Shown here: piece after piece, positions 2,916 through 5,780 of the stretch | Layout of the letters: every line of letters starts with the position of its first letter | How positions within the stretch are numbered: the stretch's first letter is position 1 | DNA from: Archaeoglobales archaeon | GTDB lineage: Archaea; Halobacteriota; Archaeoglobi; Archaeoglobales; Archaeoglobaceae | DNA length: 6,177 nt | Direction of reading: 5' to 3' | Assembly: GCA_003663055.1 (NCBI GenBank) | Contig: QMZF01000068.1 | Span: 1-6,177 of the forward strand | The notes under the pieces: model-generated | Told to the model about the DNA's origin: nothing | Database searches by the model: none | Seen by the model: the letters and a program-made list of their open reading frames with translations, nothing else | Made by a program: the position numbers and the translations under genes

Positions 2916-2977
2916 TCATCGGCACGCACTCTCCTTACTTGTTGAATATTTTCTTAGCTCCGCCTCAGCCCACCTTC

Positions 2978-3052
2978 AACTCTGTTTATTCAATATTTAT
3001 ATTTTTCTGCTGAATTAGAAAATAACTCTCCTTAGTCAACATTTATAAATGT
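2978..3052 (+). repeat. Direct repeat copy A: duplicated promoter segment
   Basis: This segment matches 3751-3827. The first 60 or so bases agree at about 51 positions with one single-base gap, including TTTATTCAA and TATTTATATTTTTCT. Both copies end in a TATTA-box core TTTATAAA and both lie directly before a small antitoxin gene. The pair looks like a promoter duplicated together with, or recruited by, two toxin-antitoxin loci. Confidence 0.8.
3041..3050 (+). promoter_or_regulatory. TATA box of the RelB-like gene
   Basis: ATTTATAAAT is a near-perfect archaeal TATA box. Its centre is about 27 nt before the ATG at 3073, so the message is probably leaderless; no Shine-Dalgarno is seen before that ATG. 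The box lies inside a wider inverted repeat, CAACATTTATAAATGTTG (3038-3055), an 18-bp perfect palindrome. This palindrome is a good candidate operator for autorepression by the antitoxin. Confidence 0.75.
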
Positions 3053-3072
3053 TGAATGCTTAATGCATATCG

Positions 3073-3264
3073 ATGGCAAACCAAATTGCTGAAATGATGA
3101 AAGACCTCAAAGAAGTAAGAGATAAGATAGATTCGATCATCGAAACACTTGAAATTATGGCGGACAAGGAACTTATGGAATCCATTAAAAAAGCAAAAGA
3201 TGAGCCGAAGAAAAGAGAGTTTCGGGAGTATCTGAAAGAAATAGGTGTAGACATTCAAGAATAG
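3073..3264 (+). CDS. RelB-like antitoxin of an archaeal RelE/RelB-type pair
   Basis: A 63-residue highly charged, helix-rich protein. The N-terminal half (QIAEMMKDLKEVRDKIDSII) has heptad-like spacing suggesting a coiled coil. The centre has the ETLEIMADKELMESIKKAK pattern that I associate with small archaeal antitoxins found beside RelE-type toxins. The charged C-terminal tail would wrap the toxin. Predicted role: bind and neutralise the RelE-like protein encoded opposite, and perhaps repress its own promoter. The ATG at 3073 is preceded by a TATA box at leaderless distance. Unusually, the partner toxin lies on the other strand with 3' ends overlapping by 10 bp, instead of in one operon. The antitoxin call rests on composition, size and neighbour; no DNA-binding fold is obvious. 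Confidence 0.72.
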   Translation: MANQIAEMMKDLKEVRDKIDSIIETLEIMADKELMESIKKAKDEPKKREFREYLKEIGVDIQE

Positions 3265-3518
3265 ATGTGTTTCCTATGACCGATTGTTCTCAAAATCACT
3301 TCTTTCGAGTTTTCGTCAATCTCGTAGACTATCCGGTATTTTCCAATGTGCAGGCTCCAATATCCTGCTAAGGCATAGGATAAGGGTTTTCCAGCGTAAG
3401 GATTCTCCTCCAGCTTTAAGATTGCTTTAGCTATTCTTTCCAATAGAGGTTTGTCTTTCTTAGTTAAATCTTCAAGCTTCTTTTCAAATTCATCTGTCGT
3501 GACTATGAGGTACTTCAT
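3255..3518 (-). CDS. relE: RelE/ParE-family toxin
   Basis: An 87-residue protein with the RelE-like fold pattern. Two N-terminal helices (DEFEKKLEDLTKKDKPLLERI and AKAILKLEENPYAGKPL) are followed by the typical beta-sheet: YWSLHIGKYRIVYEIDE, EVILRTIGHRKHIY. Conserved basic residues Lys60, Arg62, Arg77 and the terminal GHRKxIY motif fit the ribosome-dependent mRNA interferase site of archaeal RelE proteins. The ATG at 3518 (MKYLIV) is preferred because GAGATGAT, close to the anti-Shine-Dalgarno complement, ends 4 nt before it. Starts at 3524 or 3527 (MMPMKYL) would add two or three residues. A TATA-like box at 3578-3588 would give a leader of about 35 nt. It faces the RelB-like gene tail to tail with a 10-bp overlap. 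Intact, so toxicity would have to be held in check by the neighbour. Confidence 0.85.
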   Translation of the reverse strand: MKYLIVTTDEFEKKLEDLTKKDKPLLERIAKAILKLEENPYAGKPLSYALAGYWSLHIGKYRIVYEIDENSKEVILRTIGHRKHIYS

Positions 3519-3575
3519 GGGCATCATCTCTGCAGGGAGCTTGAAGAGAATGTGGATCGAGCGTATCAGTAACTC

Positions 3576-3732: not shown

Positions 3733-3750
3733 GCCGATGAGCTCAGCTCT

Positions 3751-3827
3751 AACTTTGTTTATTCAAATATTTATATTTTTCTCAAAAATTAGAAGATAAC
3801 CCTCTTTAGTACGAATGTTTATAAACT
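3751..3827 (+). repeat. Direct repeat copy B: duplicated promoter segment
   Basis: Second copy of the segment at 2978-3052, about 51 of 60 positions identical over its first part. It ends in GTTTATAAAC, a 10-bp perfect palindrome, and lies directly before the HicB-like antitoxin gene. The region where the copies differ most (CTGCTGAA versus CTCAAAAA) is in the middle, while the TATA core and the upstream T/A-rich tract are kept. Confidence 0.8.
3817..3826 (+). promoter_or_regulatory. TATA box of the HicB-like gene
   Basis: GTTTATAAAC contains the TATA core TTTATAAA (3818-3825), centred about 28 nt before the ATG at 3850. There is no Shine-Dalgarno before that ATG, so the transcript is probably leaderless. 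This matches the layout of the RelB-like promoter. Confidence 0.75.
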
Positions 3828-3849
3828 TACAGAACAGCTATAATTTACA

Positions 3850-4086
3850 ATGACAGACCGTATAAGCTTAACCTCTATAATCTGGAAAGAAGGAGATAAG
3901 TACGTCTCAAAATGCCCAGAGTTAGAAGTAGCAAGCTGCGGTGATACATTAGAGGAGGCCTTAGAGAATTTGAAAGAGGCTGTAGAGCTGTATATCGAGA
4001 ATGCAAAAGAGTTGGGGATGTTTGACGAAGAGCTTGAGGCAGTATTTAGTAAGAAATTCATAACCACGCTTGAAATTAAGATTTAA
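3850..4086 (+). CDS. hicB: HicB-family antitoxin
   Basis: A 78-residue protein with the partial RNase H-like HicB fold: ITSIIWKEGD-type strand (residues 6-16), KYVSKCPELEVASCGDT (17-33) with the typical C-PEL-V-S-GDT pattern, then the helix LEEALENLKEAVELYIENAK (34-53). HicB proteins bind and block the HicA mRNA interferase. There is no C-terminal helix-turn-helix or ribbon-helix-helix DNA-binding domain, so self-repression would need another factor, as for other short archaeal HicBs. The ATG at 3850 is placed for leaderless transcription. The cognate hicA lies on the opposite strand, overlapping by 11 bp at the 3' end, and is frameshifted. HicB may therefore now be an orphan. It carries no obvious damage itself. 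Confidence 0.87.
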   Translation: MTDRISLTSIIWKEGDKYVSKCPELEVASCGDTLEEALENLKEAVELYIENAKELGMFDEELEAVFSKKFITTLEIKI

Positions 4087-4337
4087 GGAGTTCTAGGAAT
4101 TCCTCTTTTGTTAAACCCGCTTGTTTTAGGATTGTTATTAGTGTTCCTCTGGGAATCTGATCTTTTCTGGGAATTATAACCAATCTCCTAGTTCCATTTC
4201 CTCGATTTTGTACATAGCAATATGGTACCCTTACCTCTCTTGGGGGCATACGTGAAACCCGCTTTGCTTAAGGCTCTAATTACTTCCCTGTCGGAGACTA
4301 CTGGCAACTTTGGCGTATGACTACTTTTGGTGGACAA
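4076..4337 (-). pseudogene. hicA: HicA-family toxin, frameshifted
   Basis: Two frames together encode a HicA mRNA interferase of normal size (about 80 residues). The first part reads PKLPVVSDREVIRALSKAGF then TYAPKRGKG, the family's N-terminal helix pattern, and stops at 4190-4188. One base over, the second part reads YVQNRGNGTRRLVIIPRKDQ then IPRGTLITILKQAGLTKEEF, ending at 4076. The break lies at about 4222-4245, just where the catalytic Gly-Ser-His loop of HicA belongs; no such His is visible, so the active site appears lost. The usual MPKLP start reads ACG (4316-4314), a likely lost ATG. An in-frame TTG at 4337 is the only upstream alternative. A TATA-like AATTTTAAAA (4341-4350, minus strand) lies about 29 nt before the ACG, supporting that as the original leaderless start. 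A sequencing error could mimic the frameshift. Confidence 0.8.
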
Positions 4338-4590: not shown

Positions 4591-5223
4591 ATGCTCTATG
4601 TATTCATTGACGAAAGCGGAAATTTAGGATTCACTAAGAAATCTACGAAATACTACGTTATTGCGAGTGTTGAAACAAGAAATTTGACAGAATTGAATGG
4701 TGTTGTCAAAAAAGTCAGGAAAACACTAAGAAAAAAGAAGAAGAACATTCCAGAATTCAAATTCACTAGATCTGATGATGTTATACGAAGGAGGTTCCTA
4801 AGTAGGCTTATCGAGATTGATGTTAGTTTTTCCGTAATTGTGCTACAAAAACAAACAGTTTATAACTACCTGAAAGATAAAAAAGAGAAATTGCACAACT
4901 ATCTAGCAGGATTTTTAGCAGAATCGTTAAGCTACGATTATAGCGATGAGAGAGAATTTAAAATAATCGTAGACAAATTCATAATGAGTAAGGAAAAGAG
5001 ATCGGAATTTGATTGGTACTTAGAGCGGAGATTGCTTAATAGTTATGAAGGTGTTGATTTCCCAAGAATTGGGATCTTACACGAGGGTTCCCAACAACAT
5101 CCAGGATTACAAGCTGCAGATTTCGTTGCTGGATCTGTTTTCCAATATTATGAACGTGGAAAAACCCAATATTACAACATAATTAAGCCAAAAATTAGAT
5201 TAGAATTAAGAAAGTGGTTTTAA
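4591..5223 (+). CDS. DUF3800 domain protein (predicted RNase H-like nuclease)
   Basis: A complete 210-residue DUF3800 protein. The family is known from sequence as a predicted RNase H-fold enzyme, frequent on mobile elements and in defence regions; its biochemical role is not established. The N-terminus MLYVFIDESGNLGF has the hallmark D-E-S-G (Asp7, Glu8). A strand FKIIVDKF supplies Asp128. The C-terminal HEGSQQHPGLQAADFVAGSV carries the conserved H, S and Q-AAD signature (Gln174, Asp177). Asp7, Asp128 and Asp177 would form an RNase H-like metal site. A very basic stretch at residues 40-51 suggests nucleic acid binding. The middle and C-terminus are normal length for short family members. Leaderless start at 4591. 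Its stop codon is the first strand of a GC-rich structured RNA candidate, so protein and RNA may act together (inference). It is the only intact larger gene of the island. Confidence 0.9.
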   Translation: MLYVFIDESGNLGFTKKSTKYYVIASVETRNLTELNGVVKKVRKTLRKKKKNIPEFKFTRSDDVIRRRFLSRLIEIDVSFSVIVLQKQTVYNYLKDKKEKLHNYLAGFLAESLSYDYSDEREFKIIVDKFIMSKEKRSEFDWYLERRLLNSYEGVDFPRIGILHEGSQQHPGLQAADFVAGSVFQYYERGKTQYYNIIKPKIRLELRKWF

Positions 5224-5311
5224 GCGGCCCCTACCTACTCCGTCCCACCCCGCTTACACGGGCCTCATCGTTTCGGTAGGAGGGGGCGTAAGCCCCGACC
5301 TTACCCGCTTA
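5221..5311 (+). ncRNA. GC-rich structured RNA candidate at the 3' end of the DUF3800 gene
   Basis: About 68% GC (58 of 85 bases, 5224-5308) within DNA that is clearly AT-rich, a classic sign of structured RNA in hyperthermophiles. I can pair: P1, TAAGCGG (5221-5227) with CCGCTTA (5305-5311), closing the whole block and including the DUF3800 stop codon; P2, CCTACC (5230-5235) with GGTAGG (5275-5280); P3 inside P2, CCCG (5249-5252) with CGGG (5259-5262); P4, GGGGC (5283-5287) with GCCCC (5292-5296) around a GTAA loop, a GNRA tetraloop only on the plus strand, which sets the strand. CTTAC in the P3 loop (5253-5257) complements GTAAG (5288-5292), a possible loop-loop contact. A second CCGCTTA (5250-5256) could compete for P1. 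Structured RNA motifs beside DUF3800 genes have been catalogued in Rfam (DUF3800 motifs); membership is untested. Confidence 0.7.
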
Positions 5312-5312
5312 G

Positions 5313-5330
5313 TGGATTATCTACAATCCA
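5313..5330 (+). other. Small hairpin just 3' of the RNA candidate
   Basis: TGGATT (5313-5318) pairs with AATCCA (5325-5330) around a six-base loop. It starts two bases after helix P1 closes, so it may be a 3' extension of the RNA or a processing or termination element. No T-run follows directly. The remainder, 5331-5420, is AT-rich and shows no gene. Confidence 0.35.
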
Positions 5331-5420
5331 TCTAAATAAATGTTTCTGTCAATACTTCATCACTTCAACATTATCTGCTGTTCAAAGCGTTAAATCGTTG
5401 AAAATTCTAGTACAAAAAAT

Positions 5421-5780
5421 TTAAATTTTGGCAAATTTTGGAGATTTTTGAGGTGATATTTTGGACAAGAAGGAGTAAACGTATTCGATTGATTTTTGGC
5501 TGAACAGCTCTTTCCTGCCATCATAGATTTCGAAGTAGTAACGCAGAATAGCGGAACCTTCATGGTTGAAGGCTGTCGATTCTTTTTCTTTGGACTTCTC
5601 AGCGCGGACATACACTATACGATTTTCAAGGTCGATGTCTTTTCCGCTAAGGTTTGTAACTTCTTCTAATCTCAATCCTGATGTTGCCGCCAGAACGAAT
5701 GCTGAAGTCGCTCTGAATTTTGTAGCCGGATGTATTCGCAAGTTCCAACGATTACGAGCAAAAGCAAGAGTGAGTAGTAG
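5421..5780 (-). pseudogene. Tyrosine recombinase (integrase) remnant, both ends missing
   Basis: The open frame runs from 5780 to the TAA at 5421, about 119 codons. The stretch FRATSAFVLAATSGLRLEEV carries box I of the lambda-integrase/XerC superfamily, with the catalytic Arg in SGLRLEEV. IDLENRIVYVRAEKSKEKES follows, the beta-hairpin with the catalytic Lys region. The tail (ELFSQKSIEYVYSFLSKI) leads toward box II, but the frame ends before the HxxR and Tyr motifs. Upstream, the N-terminal DNA-binding domain is absent: a stop lies at 5783-5781 and no ATG exists, only a TTG at 5741. So only the middle of the protein is left and it cannot recombine DNA. Such enzymes integrate elements into tRNA genes; with the tRNA-Leu 3.6 kb to the left, this remnant suggests the intervening DNA is a decayed integrated element. 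Confidence 0.82.

Follow-up and report, generated by a model that had tools for sequence, protein, structure and literature searches.

A DUF3800 gene and a convergent DUF3800-X RNA gene meet at a stop codon in an Archaeoglobales genome: a possible RNA-neutralised nuclease

A DUF3800 gene and a structured RNA gene lie tail-to-tail

The DNA analysed here (the window, a stretch of 6,177 nt) is contig 68 of an archaeal (Archaeoglobales) draft genome of 1.45 Mb. It contains a DUF3800 gene and a gene for a structured RNA, located on opposite strands and meeting at the stop codon of the former. The features of this unit are as follows, with the basis of each row in brackets.

4591-5223, plus strand: DUF3800 gene, 210 aa, predicted RNase HII-like fold, conserved D7/E8/E55/D128/D177 (ORF, Pfam, homologues, fold)
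5222-5310, minus strand: gene of the DUF3800-X RNA (RF02984), running from its 5' end at 5310 to a 3' end within the DUF3800 stop codon (Rfam; family covariation)
5305-5310 (5' arm) and 5222-5227 (3' arm), minus strand: outer helix P1 (alignment to the Rfam consensus)
5283-5296, minus strand: insertion hairpin, whose reverse complement is the GNRA hairpin of the initial annotation (Rfam alignment, homologue copies)
5249-5262, minus strand: apical hairpin P3, capped on the RNA strand by the GNRA tetraloop GUAA (Rfam alignment, homologues)
5236-5239 (AGUA) and 5272-5274 (its partner GAA), minus strand: conserved internal loop (pair present in 41/42 homologues)
5333-5340, minus strand: TATA-like box TTTATTTA, at -30 to -23 of the RNA, predicted RNA promoter (upstream scan)
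5342-5346, minus strand: purine-rich GAAAC beside the TATA-like box (part of the predicted promoter)

According to Pfam, the ORF at 4591-5223 matches PF12686 (DUF3800) with an E-value of 3.1e-16 and 60.8 bits (curated cut-off 21) over positions 1-148 of the 149 in the profile, bearing out the initial annotation of an intact DUF3800 protein. The three active-site candidates named in that annotation are conserved among 38 homologues (Asp128 and Asp177 without exception, Asp7 in at least 90%), and so are Glu55 and Lys57 (both invariant) and Glu8 (at least 90%). Among the matches listed, the closest fold is that of RNase HII, followed by Argonaute PIWI, and the prediction is of an RNase H fold with acidic active-site residues, as in an RNase HII-like enzyme. 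The protein differs from RNase HII in that the two share 15% identity over the alignment, DUF3800 is its only Pfam match, and DUF3800 is paired with an RNA gene. A sequence search for a matching solved structure returned nothing convincing. The dN/dS ratio is 0.07-0.17 in the 6 of 9 pairs that are unsaturated. The closest named relatives of the protein are found in Archaeoglobaceae (including Ferroglobus placidus and Archaeoglobus sulfaticallidus), and the same genome contains a second unit (G000:C226), also convergent and with a gap of 0 nt between RNA and ORF, whose DUF3800 protein is 74% identical to that of the window. PADLOC gave no defence-family match. A viral-contig scan (which reaches close relatives only) revealed no viral carriage, and neither a DNA search of plasmids nor a tblastn search of phages gave a match.

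The RNA is a full-length member of the Rfam family DUF3800-X (model positions 1-73 of 73), with an E-value of 2.9e-14 and 69.4 bits as compared to a gathering score of 38.2. It is a single full-length copy with no tandem repeat, and its GC content is 0.65, in agreement with the description of a structured GC-rich RNA at the gene end. The last two bases of the RNA are carried by the DUF3800 stop codon, so the outer helix does reach that codon, as had been read from the sequence. We ran both the covariance-model search and the covariation analysis that the initial annotation had suggested, and the helices covary over 42 distinct homologues: 91.5% of cells are paired, and 14 of 19 pairs show changes on both sides (42 of 59 distinct sequences; the 17 omitted are 9 with the insertion hairpin and 8 with indels or a low score). 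The covariation score was reached by none of 500 shuffles, and structures slid along the alignment scored 0.08-0.11 vs 0.31. Folding energies alone do not strongly mark DUF3800 3' ends, where z-scores have a median of -0.77 (12/58 at -2 or below), as compared to medians of -0.13 (4/57) and -0.07 (3/56) in the two controls.

The window RNA differs from the Rfam consensus in bearing the insertion hairpin, which sits after the GUAAG junction. The initial annotation had read this hairpin on the plus strand as a GNRA-capped 5-bp hairpin. It is found in 9 of 59 distinct X copies, with variable, unconserved loops, and the GNRA reading is therefore probably a coincidence. The GAA/AGUA internal loop is conserved, and we take it to be a loop-E (sarcin-ricin) motif.

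We note other genes in the window. An integrase fragment of 106 aa (5421-5741, minus strand; Phage_integrase, E 1e-7) lies just past the RNA promoter. A ParE/RelE-type toxin gene (ParE_toxin, E 3.3e-15) is convergent with a 63-aa ORF (3073-3264, plus strand; 3255-3527, minus strand), and the 63-aa ORF has no Pfam match above cut-off. A HicB-like antitoxin ORF (3850-4086, plus strand) scores below cut-off, and HicA-like pieces in two frames (4076-4337, minus strand) represent a broken or misread toxin gene. By eye, two similar AT-rich stretches (about 2957-3060 and 3737-3830) lie ahead of the ORFs at 3073 and 3850; they may have arisen by duplication of an upstream region.

The RNA is encoded on the minus strand and shows no obvious guide

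The initial annotation had placed the RNA on the plus strand, together with the gene; its DUF3800 gene and structured block stand, but four lines of evidence favour the minus strand for the RNA (the Rfam fit, an excess of G-U pairs, the internal-loop and tetraloop motifs, and the position of TATA-like boxes). At the window, the DUF3800-X model fits the minus strand. Read on this strand, helix cells contain 107 G-U vs 30 A-C (56 aligned copies, 50 distinct; this count and the motif and TATA counts that follow include near-copies), the GAA/AGUA pair is found in 41 of 42 homologues, and 40 of the 42 have a tetraloop of the NUGA or GNRA type. At 20 of 56 loci a strict TATA-like hexamer begins 22-42 nt before the 5' end of the RNA; the corresponding counts are 54 of 2036 for control windows and 3 of 56 for the mirrored place. 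The box of the window, TTTATTTA, is one base off the strict pattern. The 3' flank of the RNA is T-rich over 10 nt (50-55% T). We infer that the RNA is transcribed from its own TATA-like promoter.

The unit had also been likened to TnpB and its omega RNA, with a guide suggested 3' of position 5311. The pairing of a predicted RNase-H-fold protein with a structured RNA is supported by the Rfam match, the fold match, the covariation and the conserved motifs, and a ribonucleoprotein of DUF3800 and its RNA is possible; the guide and the TnpB parallel are not supported. Both systems have an RNase H-fold protein adjoining a structured RNA, but in TnpB systems the RNA lies on the same strand at the gene 3' end and terminates in a guide, whereas the DUF3800-X RNA is convergent with its gene on the opposite strand, does not form the 3' end of that gene, and has no guide segment that we could see. 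Positions above 5311 are on the upstream (promoter) side of the RNA, and its 3' side enters the DUF3800 coding sequence. Given the spacing of the TATA-like boxes and the T-rich flank on the 3' side, no variable guide segment is obvious in homologues. We rejected the guide hypothesis on the RNA strand, the flanks and the promoter position.

No element ends were identified around the DUF3800 unit. One genus has an intergenic site that is empty in the genomes of L092, L096 and L104 (aligned on both sides) and filled in others, with no target duplication obvious by eye. The flank of the window itself gave weak partial matches only, in 3 of 54 relatives.

Distribution and geometry of DUF3800 genes and their RNAs

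In the phylum sample of 392 genomes, RF02984 was found in 49 genomes (56 places, 54 of them over the cut-off) and PF12686 in 53. The distribution of RF02984 is patchy, including in the family of the window (9 of 55 genomes). An intact DUF3800 gene (at least 55 bits) lies at 22 of the 56 X places, a broken or partial one at 7 and none at 27 (i.e. no DUF3800 by tblastn within 6 kb or to the contig end), and some of the latter retain a short remnant. To examine the geometry we added 13 loci of one family to these 56 places, giving 69 in total, among which 29 units have an intact domain of at least 190 aa. All 29 are convergent; the distance from the stop codon to the RNA end is -6 to +10 nt in 24 of them, and in the other five the ORF extends into the RNA antisense.

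The scan of named genomes covered 47 loci, of which 39 as well as L204 were examined with Rfam. X is convergent with DUF3800 at 14 of the 19 archaeal loci scanned and at one acidobacterial locus (L188), and another Rfam family, DUF3800-III (RF02962), is likewise convergent with DUF3800 at L190 and L193; a third DUF3800-III match (L194) lies away from the gene matched there. No Rfam DUF3800 RNA above cut-off was found at 31 DUF3800 loci without X (including the N1 and N2-like loci described below).

Other arrangements were also seen. A weaker X RNA (47.7 bits; L083, 6001-6653) lies 3 nt from the stop codon of a convergent GNAT acetyltransferase gene. Upstream of 6001 in L081, an X RNA begins a few bases past an apparent tRNA 3' end (by eye), and may therefore be cotranscribed with the tRNA. 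In L137 and L138, a short and conserved hairpin-like element is present twice in tandem in each DUF3800 3' flank (by eye; no Rfam match above cut-off). Four alphaproteobacterial DUF3800 genes (L201, L204, L206, L212) have a common conserved block at the 3' end (by eye), and no Rfam DUF3800 match was found in this block for L201 and L204.

A sister RNA, gene arrays and protein clades

A related convergent element, which we call N1, was found 3' of X-less DUF3800 genes in the phylum (L129-L132) and in other archaea (L181-L183); at L129, L132, L181 and L183 it has no Rfam DUF3800 match with E-values up to 1. In the N1 alignment, which includes L173, 97.1% of cells are paired and 15 of 22 pairs have changes on both sides, and none of 500 shuffles scored as high. 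L173 is called X by Rfam (42.0 bits) and aligns with N1, and the N1 model matches an X-like locus, L191, at 26.3 bits; these matches suggest a single superfamily with N1 and X as branches. N1 RNAs are found in 9 of 392 genomes, 5 of which have no DUF3800. A third element (N2-like) is common to L123 and L127 (by eye).

L181, L182 and L183 contain arrays with 4, 6 and 2 N1 copies and 4, 3 and 1 DUF3800 genes, respectively. Each of the 8 genes in these arrays is matched by a convergent RNA of its own, at a distance of 5-15 nt from the stop codon, and TATA-like sequences are found upstream of the RNAs (by eye); there are also extra RNA copies lacking an intact gene. The array proteins share 28-51% identity, and the RNA stems differ. 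Because one RNA would suffice if it were shared by all genes, this strict one-to-one pairing points to cognate specificity between RNA and protein. RNA class tracks protein clade: on a tree of 63 DUF3800 domains (several long branches of which are uncertain, and in which near-copies help clustering), the RNA labels need 10 changes, as compared to a minimum of 9 and a shuffled mean of 29.3.

RNAs persist in genomes without the protein

Stop-free DUF3800 genes that score 55 bits or more number 33 in the 392 genomes, and 28 of them fall in the window's clade. An RNA lies at the 3' end of every one of these 28 (22 X, 4 N1 and 2 N2-like by eye); the remaining five (G149:C9, G102, G044, G258 and G316) belong to other subfamilies and have no assigned RNA. 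In this sample, clade DUF3800 genes lacking the RNA number 0 of 28, while RNAs lacking the protein are common.

Three genomes of one genus lost DUF3800 by a common deletion and kept the RNA (the alignment stops at 729 and resumes at 1373 in each), with no DUF3800 elsewhere in these genomes at an E-value of 0.01. Their RNAs are identical at 71, 72 and 73 of 74 positions in pairwise comparison, the upstream 100 nt at 73-77% of aligned positions, and the downstream 100 nt at 70-75%, except for one of the three pairs at 96%. In a second genus, whose genomes contain no DUF3800, syntenic orphan RNAs are identical at 68-72 of 74 positions, with flanks at 70-91%. Six genomes of family f7 kept the RNA and lack an intact DUF3800 (L040 and L041 have remnants upstream, on the same strand). 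We also found one rearranged genome (G409, outside the sample of 392) with a DUF3800 ORF that has an altered 3' end and no RNA there; the RNA lies on another contig.

In L049 (6001-7475) and L060 (6001-7496), the orphan X RNA lies directly against a long convergent gene, at the 3' end of that gene; the gene in L049 encodes an ATPase_2/DUF234 protein. Since such a gene adjoins the orphan RNA in the second genus, partner exchange or co-option is a possible source of orphan conservation.

Comparison with known systems

The DUF3800 RNA motifs reportedly come from Weinberg et al. 2017. DUF3800-linked RNAs are already known (Rfam; available portion of PMC10910872), so that the window adds a locus to catalogued pairs, and we claim no priority on the orientation of these RNAs. 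In the accessible portions of the DUF3800 literature searched, we found no tested function of the associated RNAs, and no description of the convergence rule, the one-to-one arrays, N1 or the conservation of orphans.

Type I toxins are small, usually hydrophobic, and silenced by an antisense RNA. The DUF3800 unit resembles type I pairs with a convergent antisense RNA in that the RNA overlaps the 3' end of the protein gene, but its protein is a predicted nuclease of 210 aa instead of a small hydrophobic peptide, and the RNA has a conserved and covarying fold. In type III (ToxIN) systems, to judge from the portion of PMC8167048 available, the antitoxin RNA lies upstream of the toxin in the same transcript and consists of tandem repeats. 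The likeness would be a nuclease with a structured RNA that neutralises it; DUF3800-X differs in that the RNA is a separate, single-copy gene, downstream and convergent in all 29 intact X units, with a predicted promoter of its own, and in that the DUF3800 fold is RNase H-like.

A possible RNA-neutralised nuclease

We tentatively favour, as a serious possibility, a compact two-gene unit in which a predicted nuclease gene is accompanied by a convergent structured RNA that binds the nuclease and keeps it inactive. The two would be separate genes meeting at the stop codon: the RNA, made from its own TATA-like promoter, would bind the RNase HII-like DUF3800 protein directly and hold it inactive until something removes the RNA. 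The free protein may be toxic, and the unit may serve in defence or addiction. An orphan RNA would outlive its toxin and still protect against other DUF3800 copies. The loss pattern is what led us to rank this reading first, since a cofactor or a guide should vanish with the protein and the orphan RNAs persist. We count against it the different layout of type III systems, the rearranged G409, the f7 remnants, the possible co-option of orphans and the lack of a PADLOC match. The ParE-like and HicBA-like genes of the window provide mild context.

Next comes an effector ribonucleoprotein in which the DUF3800 nuclease would need its RNA as a cofactor or scaffold and would not be inhibited by it. 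The strict pairing of RNA and gene, the RNA class following protein clade, and an internal loop resembling protein-binding ones would all fit, and DUF3800 is found with Cas12a2 and type VI-F loci (available portions of PMC10910872 and PMC12669027); however, genomes without DUF3800 retain conserved RNAs and no guide segment is seen, and we consider this reading rather unlikely. Antisense control would have the convergent RNA silence DUF3800 by base-pairing with the 3' part of its mRNA, as happens in some type I toxin-antitoxin pairs. This would fit the overlap at the stop codon, but simple antisense pairing needs neither a covarying fold nor a specific internal loop, and orphan RNAs persist without the gene, making it improbable. 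Slightly less credible still is an independent regulatory sRNA, co-opted by the host in some lineages and linked to DUF3800 mainly by shared mobility: no DUF3800 is detectable next to 27 of 56 X RNAs and the syntenic orphans of one genus are conserved beyond their flanks, but all 8 array genes have their own RNA and RNA class follows clade. A DNA recombination site like integron attC is hardly credible, as TATA-like boxes at a fixed distance and G-U cells favoured on one strand speak against it, although structured blocks do end tandemly arrayed genes and the window has an integrase fragment close by.

Returning to the RNA-neutralised nuclease, a wider version of it, which we regard as more doubtful, is that the archaeal DUF3800 proteins and those from several bacterial phyla make up one class of nucleases, each neutralised by a cognate RNA that is transcribed separately and converges on the stop codon of the nuclease gene, with the pairs diversifying in tandem cassettes and orphans acting as immunity against units that arrive from outside. 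The RNA design of such a class would be P1, a GUAAR junction, P2, an asymmetric loop and a tetraloop hairpin. If true, this large class would consist of RNA toxin-antitoxin or defence systems with a new architecture. Based on the orientation rule, the one-to-one arrays, N1 and the conserved orphan RNAs, we predict that DUF3800 is harmful or active alone and is neutralised by its own RNA. If this is the case, the DUF3800 units would represent a new RNA-controlled nuclease architecture ranging from archaea to bacteria.
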